Of a DNA stretch of 64,000 nucleotides, positions 8,240 through 60,431 are shown one piece after another. The position numbers and the translations under genes were made by a program. Below the pieces are notes generated by a model. That model saw only the letters and a program-made list of their open reading frames with translations, did no database searches and was not told the DNA's origin. The DNA is from an uncultured Bacteroidales bacterium (lineage in GTDB: Bacteria; Bacteroidota; Bacteroidia; Bacteroidales; UBA932): positions 372,001-436,000 of the forward strand of contig CAMVKH010000001.1 of NCBI GenBank assembly GCA_947168065.1, written 5' to 3'. The stretch's first letter is position 1; each line of letters opens with the position of its first letter.

Positions 8240-9123
8240 AAATCATAAAAATTGAACCACTGCGTCGGGTAGCGGCGCACCACTTCCTCCAGCAGTCCGG
8301 CGAAGGAAGAAGCCATTGCCTCGGCCCTGACCCGTGCCGGAAGTCCGGCATCGATTCCTTCGCCGACAGGACGAACATAGGCCTGATAGCGTCGGGTGCC
8401 TTCCTTCATCACGAAGACGGCCAGCATCGCAACCGAGCGCTGGGCCGCCAGCAGGAACGGGCCGGCGGGAAATGGCGCGGGCGCGTCGAAAAAGCGGCAG
8501 GTAATACTCTTCTGCGAACCGAAGATCCGGTCGCCCGGCATACTGACGATACTGCCTTCAAGCAGTGCCGCGTTCAAGGTGAACAGGTGGGACATATCTC
8601 CGGCGATAGGAACCATTTCAATGTTTGACTGGCCGAAACGGAGCGCCCGCTGCTGCATCACCGTCTCCTTCTCCCCTGCGAAGACCAGGGCATACATCCG
8701 CTTCTTCGGCGTCTGGAGAGTGTAGCCGGCCATCTCGTAATTGCCCACATGGGAACTCACCTGCACAAATCCCGGTTCGGCCGCCGACAGACGTTCGAAT
8801 TCCGGCATCCCGTCGACCTGCATATCGAACTTGCGGCCGGCATACAGGGCGAAACGGTCCATCACCACCTGTCCGAGCTTGAACTCATTGGCATAGACGC
8901 TCAGGAAGGAATGGAGAGGCCCGCGGCCGAGACGCTTGCGATAGAAGGCATAGGACGCCCGGTAGCCCCGGCGGTCAAAGAGCATATAGAAAGGGATGAC
9001 CAGCGCCGTGACGGCATAGAAGAAGCCAGTCGGGATGAAACGGAACAGCCAGAGGAGCGTCCGCTGCATCCACGGCGTGCCGCCGGTGGTGCCGTGCCAG
9101 TTGCTATGGTCGTAGGTCTCCAA
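8230..9123 (-). CDS. LpxL/HtrB-like lysophospholipid acyltransferase
   Basis: SSHVGNYEMAGYTL...VSMPGDRIFGSQKSITCRFFDAPAPFPAGPFLLA. Confidence 0.75.
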   Translation of the reverse strand: METYDHSNWHGTTGGTPWMQRTLLWLFRFIPTGFFYAVTALVIPFYMLFDRRGYRASYAFYRKRLGRGPLHSFLSVYANEFKLGQVVMDRFALYAGRKFDMQVDGMPEFERLSAAEPGFVQVSSHVGNYEMAGYTLQTPKKRMYALVFAGEKETVMQQRALRFGQSNIEMVPIAGDMSHLFTLNAALLEGSIVSMPGDRIFGSQKSITCRFFDAPAPFPAGPFLLAAQRSVAMLAVFVMKEGTRRYQAYVRPVGEGIDAGLPARVRAEAMASSFAGLLEEVVRRYPTQWFNFYDFWK

Positions 9124-50587: not shown

Positions 50588-50599
50588 CCAGCCTGTAAC

Positions 50600-50627
50600 A
50601 CACCCTCCCGGCCATGAAAAAGCGGGA
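50600..50627. repeat. Degenerate solo copy of the RAYT-flanking REP hairpin
   Basis: acaccctcccggccatgaa matches the 59.3-kb element; local hairpin CTCCCG...CGGGAG; directly after the gene stop. Confidence 0.55.
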
Positions 50628-50675
50628 GCAACAGTAGCAGATTCGACGGCAACTTGTTCAATGAATTGAATAATA

Positions 50676-50707
50676 TTTGTTTTGAGCGAATAATGTTCGT
50701 ATCTTTA
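50676..50707 (+). promoter_or_regulatory. Promoter of the candidate sRNA
   Basis: TTTG (50676-50679), N20, TATCTTTA (50700-50707). Confidence 0.55.
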
Positions 50708-50710
50708 CAT

Positions 50711-50808
50711 CGGATTCGTTAATGGGAATTCGATGAAGGGATGACAACCCTTTCAAGTCAACTTGATCCGAGCCCTTCCTGAAAGTCGCTGCCTAAGCGG
50801 CTTTTTTC
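50711..50808 (+). ncRNA. Candidate structured small RNA of about 95-100 nt
   Basis: Promoter-like box, no ORF, stem-loops AAGGG-atgacaa-CCCTT and TCAAGT-ca-ACTTGA, then terminator GCTGC-ctaa-GCGGC-TTTTTT. Confidence 0.6.
50787..50806 (+). terminator. Rho-independent terminator of the candidate sRNA
   Basis: gctgcctaagcggc followed by T6. Confidence 0.65.
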
Positions 50809-50935
50809 TTTTTCTCCCTGGGGACAAGATATACAGTATTGAACATAATCTCCATATGAGTGTTGGAAACCCACGACAAGTTTAATATTTTGATATCTCA
50901 GTATTAGGATCTTTGAAAAGCCCTTTTGGTTTTGG

Positions 50936-51175
50936 TCATTCGTTTTTCTTGGCCCTTACTGGACCAACACGGCATTTTCCAAGATTTTCGTTAATAGATA
51001 GATATTTAACCTTGATATACTGATTGATCGATTTGTTCCAAATAGCCTTTGACGGATGATCGGCTATCCATCGAGCATAAAAATCCTTGATAATCTTTTC
51101 CCGCCCCTTGATATCATCCCGACTATTTCCCGTCGGAATATCCAAAGCAATTCTACCCATATCTGTCAACTCCAA
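50936..51175 (-). CDS. Small hypothetical protein (79 aa), possibly a truncated relative of a larger mobile-element-associated protein
   Basis: MELTDMGRIALDIPTGNSRDDIKGREKIIKDFYARWIADHPSKAIWNKSINQYIKVKYLSINENLGKCRV; preceded by a consensus-like promoter. Confidence 0.5.
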   Translation of the reverse strand: MELTDMGRIALDIPTGNSRDDIKGREKIIKDFYARWIADHPSKAIWNKSINQYIKVKYLSINENLGKCRVGPVRAKKNE

Positions 51176-51208
51176 TTAACCCAACGCCACTTTGGCTCTG
51201 GACGAAGA

Positions 51209-51264
51209 CAAAGATAACATATGAACTTGCGATTTGCAAGAGTTGGCTGAAATGCTTATCTTTG
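51209..51264. promoter_or_regulatory. Overlapping divergent promoters with matched N20 spacing
   Basis: Plus: TTTG 51233-51236, N20, TATCTTTG 51257-51264. Minus: CTTG 51240-51237, N20, TATCTTTG 51216-51209. Confidence 0.6.
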
Positions 51265-51555
51265 TTTTTGACATAGTGAAAGCTATGTCATTACAAATCA
51301 GCGAAAGTGTTTTCGCGTTGACCTGGATCGAAATCTAGAAAATTTTGAATGAGAAGATTGGCGGCAGAAACACTCTGCTCGACATTGATTTGTTGTCGGC
51401 TCAATTCGGCCGATTCCATATCAGTCGGGTGTGGAGTATCAGTCGTATTCATCTCTCAAAGGTTTTTCCAGAACCCCGATCCGGTGGACGCGAAAGAAGC
51501 TCCACACTTTTTTGTTATACTTCCCTTAAATGGAGCCGAGGGGATACTAAAGTAA

Positions 51556-51888
51556 TTGATTATGAATTCGACCCATCCTCCTTTAGGAACATTCATTACA
51601 GATGAATTGTACACAAAAATTGTAAGTACTCTCCCTGATACTTTTGATTTAGACCAATTTACATTATCATTTATTCATTTTTTCCCAGACCAAATGATGG
51701 ATACCCTCCTTTGTCGTAGTTTCGTTTCAATAAAACGTTATCTGCACAAATATGTTTTAGGAAAGGCAATCCAGGATAGGCTTCACTTAGCGAAAAGACT
51801 GGAGGTGTACCCAAATAAAGAACTGTGGACAAAAGATATGAAGAAGGAGTCTTTCAAGATTCAAAGCAAACATGTAAATCAGAAATAA
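51556..51888 (+). CDS. Hypothetical protein
   Basis: ORF MIMNSTHPPLGTFITDELYTKIVSTLPDTFDLDQFTLSFIHFFPDQMMDTLLCRSFVSIKRYLHKYVLG in a low-GC patch. Confidence 0.4.
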   Translation: MIMNSTHPPLGTFITDELYTKIVSTLPDTFDLDQFTLSFIHFFPDQMMDTLLCRSFVSIKRYLHKYVLGKAIQDRLHLAKRLEVYPNKELWTKDMKKESFKIQSKHVNQK

Positions 51889-51905
51889 CAACCATTGATA
51901 TTATC

Positions 51906-52388
51906 ATGAAACATATTATTCTTATCATTTGCTGTCTTGTGATCTCTGCTTGCAACGTTTCCAGGTATGCTTCGATTCAGAGAAATGGAACAATTGATGA
52001 CTATGAATTCTTTTATGTTGTTCCTACTAGTCAATTAACTGCCGGGGCGGGAATTGTTAGTGGAGGTCAATACGGTGTTTTCGGTGGATCATCTACAAAA
52101 AGTGTTAATCCAGCTGACATAATCAGTGGATACTTAATGAAGAAAGGGTTTCGTCGAACAATGGATGACATAATGCCAGAGAAAACGTTTATAGTCGCTT
52201 ATGGAGAAAGTGGCAGACATAGTATGGGACTGACTAGCTATGCTATTGAGATTACCTTACAGTTTATCGATGCTTCAACCGATAAAGTTATTATAACATC
52301 AACAGCAGCAGGTATTGGATCAACTGAAGCTGATGATATTAGAATAGCGACTCTAAATTGTTTGAAGAATATATTTGGAGAAAAATAA
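51906..52388 (+). CDS. Hypothetical lipoprotein
   Basis: MKHIILIICCLVISACNVSRYASIQRNG lipobox; start trimmed from the ORF. Confidence 0.65.
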   Translation: MKHIILIICCLVISACNVSRYASIQRNGTIDDYEFFYVVPTSQLTAGAGIVSGGQYGVFGGSSTKSVNPADIISGYLMKKGFRRTMDDIMPEKTFIVAYGESGRHSMGLTSYAIEITLQFIDASTDKVIITSTAAGIGSTEADDIRIATLNCLKNIFGEK

Positions 52389-52584
52389 CGCTGTCCAAAC
52401 AGTGATAGCGGACGCAATAAATGGGCAAGATCTCATGTCGATGTTGAGACCTTGCCCGATGTTATTCGGCAAGATGTCTGAACTACATCCCCAGGCCGCC
52501 ATAGGAGAAGGCAGCGGAGAAGTGATAGTTCAGGGTCCGGGTCGGAACGCCCTTGTAAACAGATTGGAGTGTCTGGCCGGACTA

Positions 52585-52942
52585 CTCAACCGCCTTCAGG
52601 CGGACCTTGGCCAGCAGATTGTCGTCGAAGGCTGTGTCGATGCGGAATGCATATTCGCCGGAATGGTGTGCAAAGCCAACCGGGAAGGAGAAGGTATGTA
52701 CGACGAGTTTTGACTTGTGGATAGTCTTGAGTTCACCACGGGGAGCGACCGTCATGCATTTGCCGTTGTCATACACGCGGGCTCTCATTTCAATAATGTT
52801 GAGTAAGAATTCGCTGTTGAGCGCCTTATTCTACATATCCATCATCTGGGCGGTGGGCATATAGACACCCCAGCCGAAATAGTTGAGTGTTTCAAAGGTA
52901 ATAGGCTCTTTACCGAACGAAAGATCGATCCAAAGACGCTTT
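52585..52942 (-). pseudogene. Remnant of an unidentified gene with an in-frame stop
   Basis: Minus strand reads EKRLWIDLSFGKEPITFETLNYFGWGVYMPTAQMMDM*NKALNSEFLLNIIEMRARVYDNGKCMTVAPRGELKTIHKSKLVVHTFSFPVGFAHHSGEYAFRIDTAFDDNLLAKVRLKAVE*. Confidence 0.45.
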
Positions 52943-52947
52943 TCTCG

Positions 52948-54204
52948 TCAGATCGTCAACTGTTCTCCTTCGCTGTGGGCGATGATGACCGCACCGCAGG
53001 TGTCACCGTAGGAATTGATGCAGGTGCGGGGCATGTCGCAGATCTGTTCGACGGCCAGCACCATGCCGATGCCTTCGAGCGGAAGGCCGACGGCCGACAG
53101 CACGATGGCCAGCATCACCATGCCTGCCATCGGAATGCCCGCCGCACCGATGGCTGCCAGCAGCGCCGTGAAGACGATCATAATCTGCTGGGCCAGCGTC
53201 AGGTCGATGCCATAGGCCTGGGCGATGAAGATGGCGGCGACGCACTCGTACAATGCCGTACCGTTCATATTAATCGTGCTGCCCAAAGGGAGGACGAAAC
53301 TGGCGATCTTGTTCGAGATGCCGCATTTCTCCTGCGAATCCCGGATATTGATGGGCAGGGCTGCGCCGGAAGAGCAGGTGGAGAAAGCTGTGAGGATGCC
53401 GGTGGACATCTTGGAAATGTGCCGCCAGGGGTTCTGCTTGCCGAGCGTCCGCACCAGCAGCGGCAGCACGACACCGCCCTGGATGAGCAGCCCGCCCCAG
53501 ACTACCAGCACGAATACACCGAGGCTCCCGGCCATGGCCAGCAGCGCCTTCGGATTATCGGCCTGTTTGCCCACGACATTGGCCACGATGGCGAACACGC
53601 CGTACGGAGCCAGCCGGATGATGAACATCGTAATCTTCATGATCACCTCGAAGACGGCCTCGAACAGGTTCTTCAGCGTGCCCGCATGCTTGATCTCCAC
53701 CTTGTTCATGAACAGGCCGAAGATCACGGCGAAGAAGATGATGGGCAGCAGGTCGCCTTTGGCCATGGCTTCGAAAATATTGGCCGGGACGATGTTCACG
53801 ATCTGGTCGATGAACGACACCTGCTGCGAACTGACTGTAGCCACTTCCTCAGTCAGGTTGAGGCTGGCGCCCACCCCGGGTTTGACGAGGTTGACCAGCA
53901 GCAGGCCGATGGTGGCCGCAATCAGCGTGGTCCCGATGTAATAGAGGATGGTCTTTCCGGCGATGCGCCCCAGGGCCGTTGAATCGCCCATGCCGGCTAC
54001 TCCCAGCGCAATGGAAGTGAAAACCAGCGGGATGACGATCATGCGCAGGCCGCGCAGGAAGATGTCGCCGGCCCATTTGATGTATTTGGCCCAGTTCTCG
54101 TAGGGTGTGATCTTGCACAGTACGATGCCGGCCACGATACCCAGGCCGATGCCGATCAGGATCTGCCAGTGCAGGGCCAGGCCTTTTTTCTTCTCGTTCG
54201 CCAT
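52948..54204 (-). CDS. Dicarboxylate/amino acid:cation symporter (DAACS family)
   Basis: LRMIVIPLVFTSIALGVAGMGD...FSTCSSGAALPINIRDSQEKCGISNKIASFVLPLGSTINMNGTALYECVAAIFIAQAYG. Confidence 0.95.
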   Translation of the reverse strand: MANEKKKGLALHWQILIGIGLGIVAGIVLCKITPYENWAKYIKWAGDIFLRGLRMIVIPLVFTSIALGVAGMGDSTALGRIAGKTILYYIGTTLIAATIGLLLVNLVKPGVGASLNLTEEVATVSSQQVSFIDQIVNIVPANIFEAMAKGDLLPIIFFAVIFGLFMNKVEIKHAGTLKNLFEAVFEVIMKITMFIIRLAPYGVFAIVANVVGKQADNPKALLAMAGSLGVFVLVVWGGLLIQGGVVLPLLVRTLGKQNPWRHISKMSTGILTAFSTCSSGAALPINIRDSQEKCGISNKIASFVLPLGSTINMNGTALYECVAAIFIAQAYGIDLTLAQQIMIVFTALLAAIGAAGIPMAGMVMLAIVLSAVGLPLEGIGMVLAVEQICDMPRTCINSYGDTCGAVIIAHSEGEQLTI

Positions 54205-54211
54205 AGCAGGA

Positions 54212-56245
54212 TCATGCTTTGCGTCCGCTTTGGGCGATCATTGCTGCAACCTTCTCGTTGAATGCCTCGTTGCCGATCATCTCTTCGAGCGTCACGTGCA
54301 TCCGCCAGCGCCAGTAATGCTTCGGATTGGCCGGGATGTTGATGCGCTCGCCGGGGATGTCTTCCACGCGGAGGGATGGCTCGAGGGAGAACCAGTCCTG
54401 CAGCGGCAGGATGGTGAGCATGGACGGGGAATAGAGGTGCTCGGCGATGATCCACCGGCAGGTTTCCACCGGGCAGTCTTCGCCGTCGTGGTTTTCACCC
54501 CACCAGCCGCGGAGCGTGCTGGTGTCGTGCGAGCCCGTGGTGCAGACGCTCATGTAGGGATATTCGGCGGGATTGCCGAGCATCTGTTTGGGATCTTTGG
54601 GCATACGCTGGACTTCGAGCGAGAGGATGTGCAGATCCGACAGCACCTGCGGCACGCAGGCCGGAATCATGCCCAGGTCTTCGGCACAAGTGAGCATGTT
54701 GGTGGCACCGATCAGAACAGGCAGCTTGCGCATGGCCTGCTCGCGCCAGAAATCGGTATTGCGGTGGTAGAAGAACTCGTCGTAGAGGTGGTTGTAGGCA
54801 TCTTTCTCCCACTGTTGCAGGTCGTTGTAGCTTCGGGTATATTGGGCGCTGATGCGGGGATGCCAAAGCCCCTTGTGGACGGGATCCTCGAGGAAGAGCA
54901 CTTCCCGCGGATCGTCATCCGCATAGGGACGGGCGTGCCGCCGCTCGTCGAAGTGGAAGCCGCGCCATTGCAGGTCCTCCAGGGAATAGGGCAGAGCCGG
55001 GCTGAAATGGCCCATCAGGCCGGATTTGTAAGGCACGGGGATCTCCCAGATGCGGAAGAAACCCAGCACGTGGTCGATCCGGTAAGCGTCAAAGTACTCG
55101 GCCATCTTGCGGAAACGGCGCTTCCACCAGGCGTAGCCGTCCTGCGCCATCCGGTCCCAGTTGTAGGTCGGGAAGCCCCAGTTCTGGCCGTCGGCCGCGA
55201 ACGCGTCCGGCGGGGCGCCGGCCTGTTCTCCCATGTTGAAATACTCGGGTTCGGCCCAGGCCTCGACACTGTGAGGCGTGATGCCGATGGGGATATCGCC
55301 CTTGAGCGCAATGCCTTTCGAGCGGGCATAGGCGTGGGCGTCGCGGAGCTGCCGGTCGAGGTGATATTGCAGGAAGATGTAGTAGTCCATCTCGGGCTTG
55401 GCCTCTCCGGCATAGAAACGGGCCACGGCGCCGGCATTGTATTTCTTGAAAGTCTTCCACTTGCTGAAATCGGCGGTGCCGTAGCGGTCGCGGAGCACGC
55501 AGAAGGCAGCATAGGGCAGCAGCCAGTCTTTGTTCGATTCGAAGAACTCCTTGAAAGCACGGCTGCTCATCATGCGGGTGCCCTTCTGTGCGAAGATGGC
55601 ACGGGCATACCGGTCTTTCAGATGGAACACCTGTTCGTAGTCAAGTTGCGGGAGGGCATTGAGCCGGGCGGCCTCTTCTTCGAAGGCAGCCTGTGCCTCC
55701 TTGTTGCGCAGCGGGCCGATGTCCTGCAGGTTCAGGTAGATGGGATGCAGGGCCATGATGGTGATGCCGCCGTACGGGTAGGAATCGGTCCAGGTCTTGG
55801 TGGAAGTGGTGTCGTTGACCGGAAGCAGCTGGAGCAGGGCCTGTCCGGTGGCTGCGGCCCAGTCGACCATCAGTTTGATGTCGGCGAAGTCGCCGATGCC
55901 GGCACTGCGGCGGCTGCGGAGCGAGAACACGGGGATGGCCGTTCCGGCATAGCGGGGATGCTGGTCGGGGAAGGTCGTCTCGGTGACGGCATAGGGGTCG
56001 GTCCGGTTGAAGCAGGTCTCCCAGACGACGGAGCCGTCCGCCTTGCGGCAGATGAACTTATATTCGAAATGGGACGGAAGGAGCGCCTTGTCCAGCTCGA
56101 TACTCCAGATAATACCCTGGGTCACGGTCATGGGAAGGGCCTTCTCGGGATTCCACGCGCCCAGCGCGGGACAGCTGCCTATGAGCAGGATCTGCTCGCC
56201 ATGCAGCATCCACGGTCCGATGGTTTTGATGGTCAGTGTTTCCAT
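54212..56245 (-). CDS. malQ: 4-alpha-glucanotransferase with an N-terminal CBM20-like domain
   Basis: LLIGSCPALGAWNPEKALPM (CBM20-like) then RSRRSAGIGDFADIKLMVDWAAATGQALLQLLPVNDTTSTKTWTDSYPYGGI...YRIDHVLGFFRIWEIP. Confidence 0.92.
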   Translation of the reverse strand: METLTIKTIGPWMLHGEQILLIGSCPALGAWNPEKALPMTVTQGIIWSIELDKALLPSHFEYKFICRKADGSVVWETCFNRTDPYAVTETTFPDQHPRYAGTAIPVFSLRSRRSAGIGDFADIKLMVDWAAATGQALLQLLPVNDTTSTKTWTDSYPYGGITIMALHPIYLNLQDIGPLRNKEAQAAFEEEAARLNALPQLDYEQVFHLKDRYARAIFAQKGTRMMSSRAFKEFFESNKDWLLPYAAFCVLRDRYGTADFSKWKTFKKYNAGAVARFYAGEAKPEMDYYIFLQYHLDRQLRDAHAYARSKGIALKGDIPIGITPHSVEAWAEPEYFNMGEQAGAPPDAFAADGQNWGFPTYNWDRMAQDGYAWWKRRFRKMAEYFDAYRIDHVLGFFRIWEIPVPYKSGLMGHFSPALPYSLEDLQWRGFHFDERRHARPYADDDPREVLFLEDPVHKGLWHPRISAQYTRSYNDLQQWEKDAYNHLYDEFFYHRNTDFWREQAMRKLPVLIGATNMLTCAEDLGMIPACVPQVLSDLHILSLEVQRMPKDPKQMLGNPAEYPYMSVCTTGSHDTSTLRGWWGENHDGEDCPVETCRWIIAEHLYSPSMLTILPLQDWFSLEPSLRVEDIPGERINIPANPKHYWRWRMHVTLEEMIGNEAFNEKVAAMIAQSGRKA

Positions 56246-56285
56246 ATCGTGTCATTCAATCATTCAAAGATAATGAAAAAATTCA

Positions 56286-56293
56286 TACATTTG
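56286..56293 (+). promoter_or_regulatory. -7 promoter element directly before the radA start
   Basis: TACATTTG ends 4 nt before ATG (56298). Confidence 0.4.
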
Positions 56294-56297
56294 TCGT

Positions 56298-57707
56298 ATG
56301 GCAACGAAGATTAAGACGGTATGGTACTGCACCTCGTGCGGGAACGAAAGCCCGAAGTGGATGGGACGCTGTCCTGCCTGTGGGGAATGGAATACGATGG
56401 TGGAGGAACCGAAAGCGGCCCGTGCCGGTGCGGGCGGGGGCGGAAAGACGACTTCCCGCTCGCGGGCATACATTGACGCTTCCGACGCCCGGCCGCAACG
56501 GCTCCGTGAGATCGACCTCTCGCACGACAACCGGTTTTCCATCGGCATCGGGGAGCTCGACCGCGTGCTCGGCGGCGGGATGGTCGCCGGAAGCATGATC
56601 CTCATCGGCGGCGAGCCCGGTATCGGCAAATCGACCCTCTCCCTGCAGATTCCGCTCTGCTGCAAGGACTTGAAAACCCTCTATGTCTCCGGTGAGGAAA
56701 GTCCCAAGCAGATCAAGCTCCGCGCAGAGCGCCTCGGCGGCAGCGAAGACGACTGCTTTGTCCTCAGCGAAACCGTTCTCGAGAACATCCTCTCCCAGGC
56801 CCGGGAGATCCAGCCCGCCCTGCTGATCGTCGACTCCATCCAGACCATCTACAGTGAGGCGCTCGACTCCTCCGCGGGCAGCGTGTCCCAGGTACGGGAG
56901 TGCGCCTCATCGCTGCTGCGCTACGCCAAGGAGACGGGTACGCCCGTCATCCTGATCGGCCACATCACCAAGGACGGAACGCTCGCCGGTCCGAAGGTCC
57001 TTGAACACATCGTCGACGTGGTCCTGCAGTTCGAAGGCGACACGAAAGGTGCCTACCGCATCCTGCGCAGCATCAAGAACCGTTTCGGATCGACCGACGA
57101 GCTGGCTGTCTTCGAAATGACCGGCGCGGGACTGCGGGAAGTGCGCAACCCTTCCGAAATCCTCATCCCGATGCATCAGGACGACCTTTCGGGCATTGCC
57201 ATCGCCGCCATGATGGACGGAACGCGTCCGTTCCTGATCGAGATCCAGGCACTGGTGAGCACCGCTGCCTACGGTACGCCCCAGCGCTCGGCCACGGGCT
57301 TCGACGGCCGCCGGCTCAACATGCTGCTGGCCGTGCTCGAGAAGCGCGCCGGCTTCAAGCTGGCCGCCAAGGATGTATTCCTGAATATCGCCGGCGGCCT
57401 CCGGGTGGCCGACCCGGCCTGCGACCTGGCCATTGTGGCCTCCATTCTCTCGTCCAACTTCGACCTGTATATCTCGCCGAAAGTCTGCTTCGCCGCCGAA
57501 GTGGGCCTGAGTGGGGAAATCCGCCCTGTCTGCCAGGTTGAGCGCCGCATCGCCGAGGCCGAAAAGCTCGGTTTCGAGCAGATCTACATCTCTTCTTTCA
57601 ACAAGGAATCCTCCTTCGCCAAGCGTACGAAATCGGCCGACGGCCGCGGCATCACCGTCACGCCCGTAGACGACATCGCTGCCCTCTGCCGGAAGCTGTT
57701 CCAATAG
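56298..57707 (+). CDS. radA: DNA repair protein RadA
   Basis: WYCTSCGNESPKWMGRCPACGEWNTMVEE zinc finger; GGEPGIGKSTLSLQI Walker A; KNRFGSTDE motif. Confidence 0.97.
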   Translation: MATKIKTVWYCTSCGNESPKWMGRCPACGEWNTMVEEPKAARAGAGGGGKTTSRSRAYIDASDARPQRLREIDLSHDNRFSIGIGELDRVLGGGMVAGSMILIGGEPGIGKSTLSLQIPLCCKDLKTLYVSGEESPKQIKLRAERLGGSEDDCFVLSETVLENILSQAREIQPALLIVDSIQTIYSEALDSSAGSVSQVRECASSLLRYAKETGTPVILIGHITKDGTLAGPKVLEHIVDVVLQFEGDTKGAYRILRSIKNRFGSTDELAVFEMTGAGLREVRNPSEILIPMHQDDLSGIAIAAMMDGTRPFLIEIQALVSTAAYGTPQRSATGFDGRRLNMLLAVLEKRAGFKLAAKDVFLNIAGGLRVADPACDLAIVASILSSNFDLYISPKVCFAAEVGLSGEIRPVCQVERRIAEAEKLGFEQIYISSFNKESSFAKRTKSADGRGITVTPVDDIAALCRKLFQ

Positions 57708-57720
57708 CCGACTGACGCCC

Positions 57721-58224
57721 ATGGAAGTCCTGCCCGTCAAACAGCACAGGTCCCTTCAGACCCGCGAATACGTGGCGCTGGCCTTCCTGGCCGCCTCCGT
57801 TACGTTCTACATCCTGGGACTCTGCTATCCCCTGATGTCCACCAAATACCAGGTATTGGGCTTCCAGATCCGGAGCCAGGAAGTCACGCTGTTCGATTCG
57901 GTCCGGATGTTCTGGGAGAGCAGCGACTACCTGATTTCGGGCATCATCCTGATCTTCACGTTCGTCTTTCCCGTCCTCAAATACATCGAGCTGGGGCTCA
58001 GGCTGGCCACAGGCCGGCAGTTCCTCAAACTGCAGTCGGTGGACAAATGGAACATGATCGACGTGTTCCTCGTCGCCATGCTGCTGCTCAATTTCAAGAT
58101 GAACTCGCGCTTTATCGTCATGCGCCTCGAAATGGGCACCAACTTCATCGCCCTGGCCGTCCTCACCCGTCTGGTCACCATCCTCCTGCTCGACCGCGCT
58201 GCCAAACGCATCTCCCAGCCATAA
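57721..58224 (+). CDS. Paraquat-inducible protein A-like membrane protein
   Basis: LAFLAASVTFYILGLCYPLMSTKYQVLGF...LISGIILIFTFVFPVLKYIELGLRL; stop codon lies in the repeat at 58218. Confidence 0.75.
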   Translation: MEVLPVKQHRSLQTREYVALAFLAASVTFYILGLCYPLMSTKYQVLGFQIRSQEVTLFDSVRMFWESSDYLISGIILIFTFVFPVLKYIELGLRLATGRQFLKLQSVDKWNMIDVFLVAMLLLNFKMNSRFIVMRLEMGTNFIALAVLTRLVTILLLDRAAKRISQP

Positions 58225-58303
58225 AAACCGGCCGTTTCTATGGCCGACCCTGCTGAAAACATCCTCCCGGCCATGAATTCAATGCGTTTTCATGGCCGGG
58301 AGG
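58218..58303. repeat. 86-bp double-hairpin REP-like element, left copy
   Basis: gccataaaaaccggccgtttctatggccgaccctgctgaaaacatcctcccggccatgaattcaatgcgttttcatggccgggagg; 84/86 identical to the copy at 59346. Confidence 0.95.
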
Positions 58304-58401
58304 GGTTTTACGTCAAATAGTATTTGCAAAACGACCTTCTGCGATGTATATTTGTTGTATCCATAGCCTCGGTGGCGTTGGAGATAGATGTGAAAAGGAG
58401 T

Positions 58402-59352
58402 ATGGCTAAGGAACATTCTTTTTTTGAGAAGGAGGAACGCTGCAGACGGGTCTTCGAATGGACATTGCACAAATATGGTGGTGTGTGGCACTTGTGCACA
58501 CCCGGTCAAAAACAGACTGTCATTTTCATTGATCCGAAAGACTATATCTACGCAATGACACTTGTGGCAATGTGTGCCCACGATTGTCCGGGCATCAAGA
58601 TCATCACTTTCGAATTGATGAGCAATCATGTGCATTTTATCATTTGCGGCAGCAAAAAAGAGGTATTGACTTTCTTTGACTTATTCAAAAAGCGTTTACA
58701 GCGTTATCTGTCATCTAACGGCAAGACCGTCGACCTTTCTAACTTCGATTGTGAGGAGCCACATCCCATCGATAACCTGGAATCGCTACGAAACCAGATT
58801 GCTTATACGAACCGCAATAACTTTGTGGTGGATCCGGACCAACTTCCATTCGGATATCCCTATGGTGCGAACAGTTATTACTTCCTGCCGATTGCCAAAG
58901 AACGGCAGCATGGCCGTTTCGGGGAATTGAGTATTCTCAAGAAAAGACAATTCGTCCACTCAAAACAGATCGATTATCCTGACACCTTTACAATCGTCGA
59001 TGGTTATTTCTCCCCGATGAATTACTGTCGGCTGGATATCGGAGAAGGGGTGTTCCGAGATGCCCGCCACTATTTCCACAAGCTTTCTAAAGGGGTGGAA
59101 TCCTATCGGGATATTGCCGTCATGCTGGGTGATGCAGTTTTCTACACCGATGAAGAATTGTTCGACATTATCAAGCAGTATTGCCATGAGAAGCATGGCG
59201 GCCAGCGGGCATCCCTCCTGGGATGGAATGAGAAGATGGAACTCGCCAGGATGCTTCATTTCGATTACAACGCCGACAACGCCAAGATTGCACGCCTAAT
59301 CAAACTGCCCGTCGAAACACTCAACGAACTATTTCCCTCTTCCCGGCCATAA
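58402..59352 (+). mobile_element. REP-associated tyrosine transposase (RAYT)-like Y1/HUH transposase
   Basis: MAKEHSFFEKEERCRRVFEWTLHKYG...ITFELMSNHVHFIICG (HUH) ...LRNQIAYTNRNNFVV (candidate catalytic Tyr) ...C-terminal HTH-like NAKIARLIKLPVETLNEL; between two REP copies. Confidence 0.85.
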
Positions 59353-59431
59353 AAACCGGCCGTTTTTATGGCCGACCCTGCTGAAAACACCCTCCCGGCC
59401 ATGAATTCAATGCGTTTTCATGGCCGGGAGG
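59346..59431. repeat. 86-bp double-hairpin REP-like element, right copy
   Basis: gccataaaaaccggccgtttttatggccgaccctgctgaaaacaccctcccggccatgaattcaatgcgttttcatggccgggagg; contains the RAYT stop codon. Confidence 0.95.
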
Positions 59432-59474
59432 TTTGCGTGGGATTCTTCGACGTGGAAACGGAGGATGTGGGCTG

Positions 59475-60431
59475 TCAGCGGATGACGAAGCGGTCGCGGC
59501 CTGTGATGTCGGCGACGACGCGGGAGCCGGGAAAGAGGGCGGCCACGTCGGAGCCGAATCGCTCGTTGATTTCCAGATAAAGATGGCCGTCGGGGCGCAG
59601 GAGGACATCGGCCCAGCGTGCGATGGCCCGATAGAAGCGCAGCGGATCGTCGTCGGGGACGAAGAGGGCCTCGGCGGGTTCAAAGTCAAGGACATTCGGC
59701 CGCATCGCGGCGCGCTCGCTGTTGCAGATATAAGGCGGATTCGATACGATAACATCGAATTTCGGCAGTCCGGCCGGCGGAGCCGCCAGCACGTCGGCCG
59801 AGAAAAAGATCGGCTTGGCTCCCCGAAGTTTGATGCGCTGCCGGCAGGCATAACGCAGGGCAGCGTCCGACAGATCGCAACCATAGACCATCGCCTCGGG
59901 AAACTCCGCCGCCAACGACCAGGCGATACATCCCGAGCCGGTGCACAGATCGAGGATACTGAACGGGCTGTCGTCGTCGGCCTCGAGATGCCCGGTCGAG
60001 CCGGGCACGACGGAAGAAGTCGAGCCGGGCACGGCGGAATCGTCGTCGGCATAGAGGTCGTCGATGATGCGGGAGACCAGTTCCTCCGTTTCCGGCCGGG
60101 GAATCAGACACCCCTCGCCCACTTTGAAACGGTGGCCGCAGAACTCCGTGAAGCCCAGCACATACTGTAGCGGACGGCCGGTCGAGAGCTCTTCGAGCGC
60201 CGCCAGGATGTCAGATTCCCGGTCAAGCCGGGAATGACGAACGGAGTCAAGCTGGAAATGACGGGAGTCAGTAGCGGAGGCTAACGGCATATCCGGTTCG
60301 GAAACATACTTATAAGAAGGTATGTCACAATAGTGCTCCAACAGCCGGAAAGCCATGGCCTTGGCCTCCGCCTCCGGATACAGGGACGACAGCCGGTCAA
60401 TACAGAGATGGACGAATGCTGCTATTGTCAT
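59475..60431 (-). CDS. prmC: Peptide chain release factor N(5)-glutamine methyltransferase, with two palindrome-derived insertions
   Basis: RPLQYVLGFTEFCGHRFKVGEGCLIPRPETEELV...ILDLCTGSGCIAWSLA...FDVIVSNPPYI. Confidence 0.93.
   Translation of the reverse strand: MTIAAFVHLCIDRLSSLYPEAEAKAMAFRLLEHYCDIPSYKYVSEPDMPLASATDSRHFQLDSVRHSRLDRESDILAALEELSTGRPLQYVLGFTEFCGHRFKVGEGCLIPRPETEELVSRIIDDLYADDDSAVPGSTSSVVPGSTGHLEADDDSPFSILDLCTGSGCIAWSLAAEFPEAMVYGCDLSDAALRYACRQRIKLRGAKPIFFSADVLAAPPAGLPKFDVIVSNPPYICNSERAAMRPNVLDFEPAEALFVPDDDPLRFYRAIARWADVLLRPDGHLYLEINERFGSDVAALFPGSRVVADITGRDRFVIR
59982..60050. repeat. 69-bp in-frame palindromic insertion in prmC
   Basis: Bounded by 11-bp direct repeats tcgtcgtcggc (59971-59981 and 60040-60050). 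Contains TGCCCGG-tcgag-CCGGGCA and a 24-bp tandem duplication. Confidence 0.75.

Follow-up and report, generated by a model that had tools for sequence, protein, structure and literature searches.

A probable REPtron-like locus with a divergent RAYT-like protein and paired hairpins of fixed period in an uncultured Bacteroidales bacterium

A gene for an HUH/Y1 protein that lies between two almost identical hairpin-bearing repeats raises the question whether protein and repeats form one system, as in the REPtrons of E. coli, whether gene and repeats move together as an insertion sequence, or whether the protein has no part in the repeats at all. An earlier note pointed to such a locus in a window of 64,000 nucleotides, i.e. 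the whole stretch of DNA analysed here, from an uncultured Bacteroidales bacterium (genome G000). To our knowledge, the recognition and spreading of REPs by RAYTs has been worked out only in a few proteobacterial GTAG-foot proteins.

The two repeats are direct, 91 nt long each, identical at 88 of 91 positions (97%) and spaced 1128 bp apart. Over the 86-bp span used in the earlier note, its figures of 84/86 identical positions and 1128 bp for the copies around the HUH gene were confirmed. The gene and its flanks comprise the following features.

58213..58303, + strand: left two-hairpin unit (91 bp), at the same place in the conspecific genome G036 and in contig C105 of genome G018
58217..58245, + strand: hairpin 1 of the left unit (29 nt, one mismatch), in which the PqiA-like ORF ends with TAA at 58222-58224
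58263..58303, + strand: hairpin 2 of the left unit (15-bp perfect stem), with its 29-nt core at 58269-58297, 52 nt after hairpin 1
58402..59352, + strand: RAYT-like HUH/Y1 protein of 316 aa, stop codon at 59350-59352 in right hairpin 1
58627-58629, 58633-58635 and 58804-58806, + strand: codons of the predicted HUH/Y1 catalytic residues H76, H78 and Y135
59224..59331, + strand: C-terminal three-helix (HTH-like) region, residues 275-310, from the AlphaFold model
59341..59431, + strand: right two-hairpin unit (91 bp), with the core of hairpin 1 at 59345-59373 and hairpin 2 at 59391-59431

Both copies contain the two hairpins that had been described, hairpin 1 (CCATAAAAAC..GTTTTTATGG) with a mismatch in the left copy and hairpin 2 with a perfect 15-bp stem. 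The two hairpins of a unit are built from one stem, CGGCCATAAAA / CGGCCATGAA, and start 52 nt apart. Folded as ssDNA, the left and right copies gave z = -5.95 and -8.13, and 0 of 200 shuffles were equally stable; an Rfam search of 58100-59600 returned no match. The PqiA-like ORF ends with a TAA stop inside left hairpin 1, and the RAYT likewise with a TAA stop inside right hairpin 1. The loop CAATGCG occurs in both flanking units of G000 and CAACGGG in both units on G018 contig C105, and since these loop changes are common to the left and right units within each locus, the two copies exchange sequence (concerted evolution).

The protein is best read from the ATG at 58402, the start common to close relatives and favoured by the family alignment; a longer TTG-started ORF from 58324 is unneeded. 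Both the HUH motif FELMSNHVHFIICG and the candidate tyrosine in IAYTNRNN, as named in the earlier note, are present, and with the catalytic tyrosine about 60 aa after HUH and a matching fold the protein has the features of the Y1 HUH superfamily. All 14 close relatives have N75-H76-x-H78 and Y135 unchanged, and H76, H78 and Y135 are also invariant across 10 sequences down to 25% identity. The gene is under purifying selection, with dN/dS = 0.107 (about 0.11) in comparison with the G018 copy on contig C105. Structural support comes from an AlphaFold model with a mean pLDDT of 62, in which good quality is confined to the HUH core and C-terminal helices and residues 138-246 are mostly unreliable; its helices 275-289, 293-300 and 304-310 form a block with pLDDT of about 83-88, in line with the C-terminal HTH suspected before. 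A Foldseek search with this model gave no match below E 0.001; the top PDB match is 4er8, the E. coli RAYT with REP hairpin (prob 1.00, E 3.8e-3), and the next 30 matches are nearly all Y1 (IS200/IS605) transposases. The sole match of a PDB sequence search was ISDra2 TnpA (E 0.13). A PHROGs match of the protein was at chance level only and was discarded.

The features of canonical RAYT/TnpAREP class 2, i.e. YI..NP, the W motif and scores above the curated profile cut-offs, are all lacking in the window protein. The Y motif of its close clade is YxNRN, residues 78-135 between HUH and Y contain no W, and the scores fall below threshold both for the Y1_Tnp profile (E 0.0084, 16.7 bits vs a 23-bit cut-off) and for REP_Tyr_transpos (E 0.053, 13.4 bits vs an 80-bit cut-off). 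A distant sister clade, whose members the window protein finds with E about 1e-23, keeps the class-2 YV..NP signature (YVQMNP / YVLKNP), and a homolog from it scores 1.3e-10 (41.3 bits) with NCBIfam REP_Tyr_transpos and 7e-5 (23.4 bits) with Y1_Tnp. Hence, the invariant H/H/Y residues, the dN/dS value, the top match to 4er8 and the profile scores of the sister clade mark the window protein as a working-looking, divergent relative of RAYTs.

The connection between protein and hairpins becomes apparent when homologs are compared. In most of them the left and right flanks share a hairpin stem, and this stem differs from homolog to homolog, with examples such as GGCCATAAA, TGTCCAAG, CATCCTCA, GTCCATGAA, TGGCACAAA and GTGAGCAAA. 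For 31 of the 45 homologs, none of the 45 right flanks matches the left flank better than the gene's own does (permutation p 1e-4), and stem similarity rises with protein identity, although this correlation is modest (Mantel rho 0.37, p 5e-4). The distance between hairpins is kept irrespective of the stem: among 89 same-stem pairs 36-80 nt apart, 58 show a period of 51 nt and 28 of 52 nt (together 86/89), with two more at 50 nt and one at 42 nt. These counts are non-independent, given arrays, overlapping hairpin calls and some stems of common ancestry; the control is near zero, five-fold shuffles yielding 1 pair in total. Moreover, an A4/T4 run occurs in 25 of 51 distinct spacers, compared to 6.7 expected. 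Hairpins also occur in arrays, in G035 and G029 as well as in G013, where a 51-nt hairpin repeat is present in 10.2 and 10.4 copies on the two sides of the gene.

L133:6656-7175 and 8354-8884: arrays around the RAYT of G013, about ten 51-nt hairpin repeats each

A CRISPR-like nature of the 51-nt arrays was considered and dropped, as each array has conserved 22-nt 'spacers' and its repeats are hairpins. As the two-hairpin layout recurs around dozens of homologs but was found at 0 of 11 distant-homolog loci from other families or classes, where the 51-52 nt layout was sought, it is not a chance product.

Units with the cognate stem are dispersed in the genome as well. A genome-wide count of the element, as suggested in the earlier note, revealed other copies, the absence of which the note had named as part of a refutation: three further intact units and one half-hairpin remnant. 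This makes five intact two-hairpin units in G000 (the two at the gene, and C3, C7 and C9; the MAG is 77% complete) and compares with seven in G036.

50597..50620, - strand: half of a hairpin-2, arm CCTCCCGGCCATGAA at 50604-50618, after the DUF5723 gene; a whole unit stands at the same boundary in G036

GGCCATRAA hairpins number 11 in G000, 15 in G036, 10 in G023, 11 in G001 and 5 in G018. Each of the remaining 35 of 40 genus genomes has 0-3 of them, and a reversed-pattern control gave 0-2. The TGTCCAAG pattern of the 72% identical paralog was too permissive genus-wide, with equally high control counts in many genomes, so that its use was restricted to paired hits in G000 and G036. With only about 5 to 7 units per genome, and with diverged loops, the units give no evidence of recent transposition. 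A comparison of G036 with the incomplete MAG G000 provided no clean pair of a filled and an empty site for a solo unit; the sites of two units found only in G036 (C35, C42) gave matches of only 76-82% in G000, where the orthologous stretch may be missing. At L163 vs L165, around 977-997, the gene content of G036 and G000 differs about 120 bp 5' of a common solo unit.

The locus has a PqiA-family gene (PF04403, 3e-16) on one side and, on the other, a methyltransferase consistent with prmC, as the earlier note had placed it. G036 belongs to the same species as G000 (about 98.5% across several loci), but when this site was compared with it, the RAYT proved to be missing there while solo units remain. 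The order in G036 is prmC - unit - symporter..PqiA - unit, followed by the DUF5723 gene. The window differs in that its 5.3-kb symporter..PqiA segment is inverted, the RAYT stands between PqiA and prmC, and the half hairpin is found at the other end.

52950..58303, no strand assigned: segment inverted relative to G036 (dicarboxylate symporter, malQ, radA, pqiA-like, left unit), bounded in G036 by inverted solo units

The outgroup G003 has the G036 gene order and no units. G004 has the window order without a RAYT at this place, and another hairpin stands inverted at both ends with a spacing of 51. Recombination between inverted units together with deletion between direct units would simply explain the difference between G000 and G036. 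In G008 the window order is not accompanied by obvious units, which means that inversion does not always need them. Across the genus, the symporter-malQ-radA-pqiA segment (window 52950-58303 vs G036 L098:9712-15074) is found in both orientations, and its ends often carry hairpin units or RAYTs. Beside the half-hairpin remnant, 2.3 kb (window 50624-52949) with small ORFs, one of them lipoprotein-like and without a Pfam match, are missing from G036.

The coincidence of the inversion with unit pairs would also be expected if the units were mainly bidirectional terminators or mRNA-stabilising 3' hairpins which additionally provide recombination homologies, and on which the protein no longer acts. 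Their strong stems, their position here between convergent genes and the stop codons supplied by hairpin 1 are consistent with such a role. However, a pure terminator has no need of a second hairpin at a fixed distance, whereas the 51-52 nt period is kept, the stem sequence follows the neighbouring RAYT and the catalytic residues are under selection. Furthermore, a simple terminator scan, which covered loops of 3-8 only, called none at the units. We therefore regard this explanation as rather unlikely.

The absence of the gene from a conspecific genome, together with an HUH/Y1 protein and terminal hairpins, might likewise point to a self-mobile IS200/IS605-like insertion sequence, in which the whole 1.2-kb block of unit, gene and unit moves and the hairpins act as its ends. 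Indeed, the HUH/Y1 catalytic core is shared with IS200/IS605 transposases (ISDra2, IS608). But these elements have a single subterminal hairpin per end, whereas the ends here are direct two-hairpin copies, and the gene-free site of G036 retains solo units, as deletion between direct repeats predicts. Many genomes possess several paralogs, each gene type being single-copy per genome; near-identical multiple copies of the gene or of the whole element, as expected for IS200/IS605, were found in no sampled genome, and the next closest paralog in G000 is 72% identical and carries another stem. The 'self-mobilising' alternative of the earlier note is thus unsupported, and we consider an insertion sequence of this kind improbable.

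Of 61 relatives that were searched, 31 have the family, and nearly all of these belong to one genus, the carriers including Bacteroidales MAGs from rumen and other ruminant guts, and an alignment-based search of 295 genomes of the order added one further genus only, from the same family. The closest RAYTs are those of G018 (97%) and G023 (80%), followed by G001 (67%, with a related stem). The presence of several paralogs in many genomes is not an IS-like pattern. Weak HUH-domain matches occur elsewhere in the phylum; among them, loci L202-L205 and L207-L209 (family f136) have ORFs of about 325 aa with a weak HUH match and without surrounding paired hairpins, in many genomes. The G018 copy is located on a 4.2-kb contig (L099, C105) that is 94-95% identical to the window, and because G018 has a second PqiA-like copy (81%), this contig is probably a binning stray from a G000-like strain.

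Finally, the direct repeats of 97% identity could stem from a simple segmental duplication on both sides of a nuclease gene to which they bear no functional relation, but this is hardly credible in view of the same layout with different stems around dozens of homologs and is contradicted by the flank-matching test (31/45).

How, then, does the locus relate to known systems? With the E. coli TnpAREP/RAYT REPtron (4er8; PMC8266576) it shares the HUH/Y1 fold, as its best structural match, a single-copy gene, flanking hairpin repeats with further copies in the genome, and one repeat type per gene. In E. coli, however, REPs need the GTAG foot, which is crucial for the RAYT, form inverted REP/iREP pairs and reach high copy numbers (PMC8266576), whereas the window system has no GTAG, a 51-52 nt hairpin period, direct whole-unit copies, a low copy number and a protein with a much longer C-terminal part. 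The earlier proposal of a REPtron-like unit with cognate palindromes holds for the architecture, i.e. gene-specific palindromic flanks that are also dispersed in the genome; it does not extend to the GT[AG]G foot, absent from units and flanks on direct reading, to W and Y..NP, or to the usual copy number of >100 REPs, which contrasts with 5 units in G000 and 7 in G036.

Y1 proteins have been sorted into subclasses (PMC6006769). Subclass 2.6 is found in Bacteroidetes and is described with atypical hairpins without GT[AG]G, a median length of 179 aa, YIH[QN]NP and a W motif (PMC6006769). The window family resembles it in phylum, in the lack of GT[AG]G and in atypical hairpins that also occur elsewhere in the genome, but is set apart by this description with about 316 aa, YxNRN and no W. 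Subclass 2.1 / TIRYT proteins have a C-terminal HTH, with either no REPs or terminal inverted repeats (PMC6006769, PMC3733652). The long HTH-bearing extension is common to both, whereas the window gene is flanked by paired hairpins in direct repeat and not by long terminal inverted repeats. Judged from these motifs, the window family seems to combine a 2.1-like extension, REPtron-like flanks and a diverged Y motif. REPINs and BIMEs (PMC3116915, PMC6006769) are likewise dispersed units of two hairpins, but consist of inverted REP doublets in high numbers, whereas the window-type units are fixed 51-52 nt doublets or arrays with about 5-7 per genome.

Hence, we think it likely that the locus is REPtron-like and represents a divergent RAYT subclass in one Bacteroidales family, whose protein acts on its cognate paired hairpins. 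Such a protein would be a Y1-type HUH ssDNA endonuclease, with H76/H78 for the metal, Y135 as nucleophile and a long C-terminal HTH-bearing extension. Where a strand becomes single, on the lagging strand or by extrusion, it may bind the paired hairpins, nick at the hairpin feet via a 5'-phosphotyrosine and rejoin the ends, whereby the two-hairpin unit would be copied or moved to intergenic sites. The gene itself would stay single-copy in place with mostly vertical inheritance. The left and right units exchange sequence with each other, the gene between them could be deleted with one unit left behind, and units may serve as inverted homologies for chromosomal inversions.

It is possible, and we put it forward tentatively, that this is a distinct Y1/HUH repeat-mobilising system, in which the protein reads two same-stem hairpins as a single substrate. 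Their period of 51-52 nt, about five helical turns, would be fixed, so that the stems could change along with the protein but the spacing could not. Units would grow to 10-copy arrays, and a core-gene segment could flip where inverted units surround it. RAYT-flanking units across the genus that differ in stem from one homolog to the next but keep the 51-52 nt period appear to be new here; the fixed doublet is undescribed in the open-library papers found, although absence there is no proof of novelty, and the earlier suspicion that the two-hairpin architecture of Bacteroidetes is poorly described agrees with its absence from them. The many paralogous protein/hairpin pairs of this genus, with different stems and one spacing, represent a natural swap experiment on recognition. 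Moreover, the system makes the joint processing of two hairpins testable and connects repeats of this kind with rearranged gene order in uncultured rumen bacteria.

Upstream of the gene, a promoter and a leader can be proposed.

58347..58354, + strand: candidate RAYT promoter, Bacteroides-type -7 box TATATTTG; a TANNTTTG-like box lies 5' of most homologs
58361..58381, + strand: conserved leader CCATAGCCTCGGTGGCGTTGG, 14-15 nt downstream of the -7 box, with the near-dyad GCC..GGTGGC

We take the -7 box to be Bacteroides-type from its general consensus. In 17 of 21 close homologs, the leader CCANAGCCNNGGTGGCGTTGG follows 14-15 nt past this box. As its near-dyad falls on the likely transcription start, we speculate that it is an operator candidate for the protein's own HTH, through which the gene may be autoregulated. 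Promoter box and near-dyad leader (window 58347-58381) are common to RAYT paralogs and mark a possible self-repression site.
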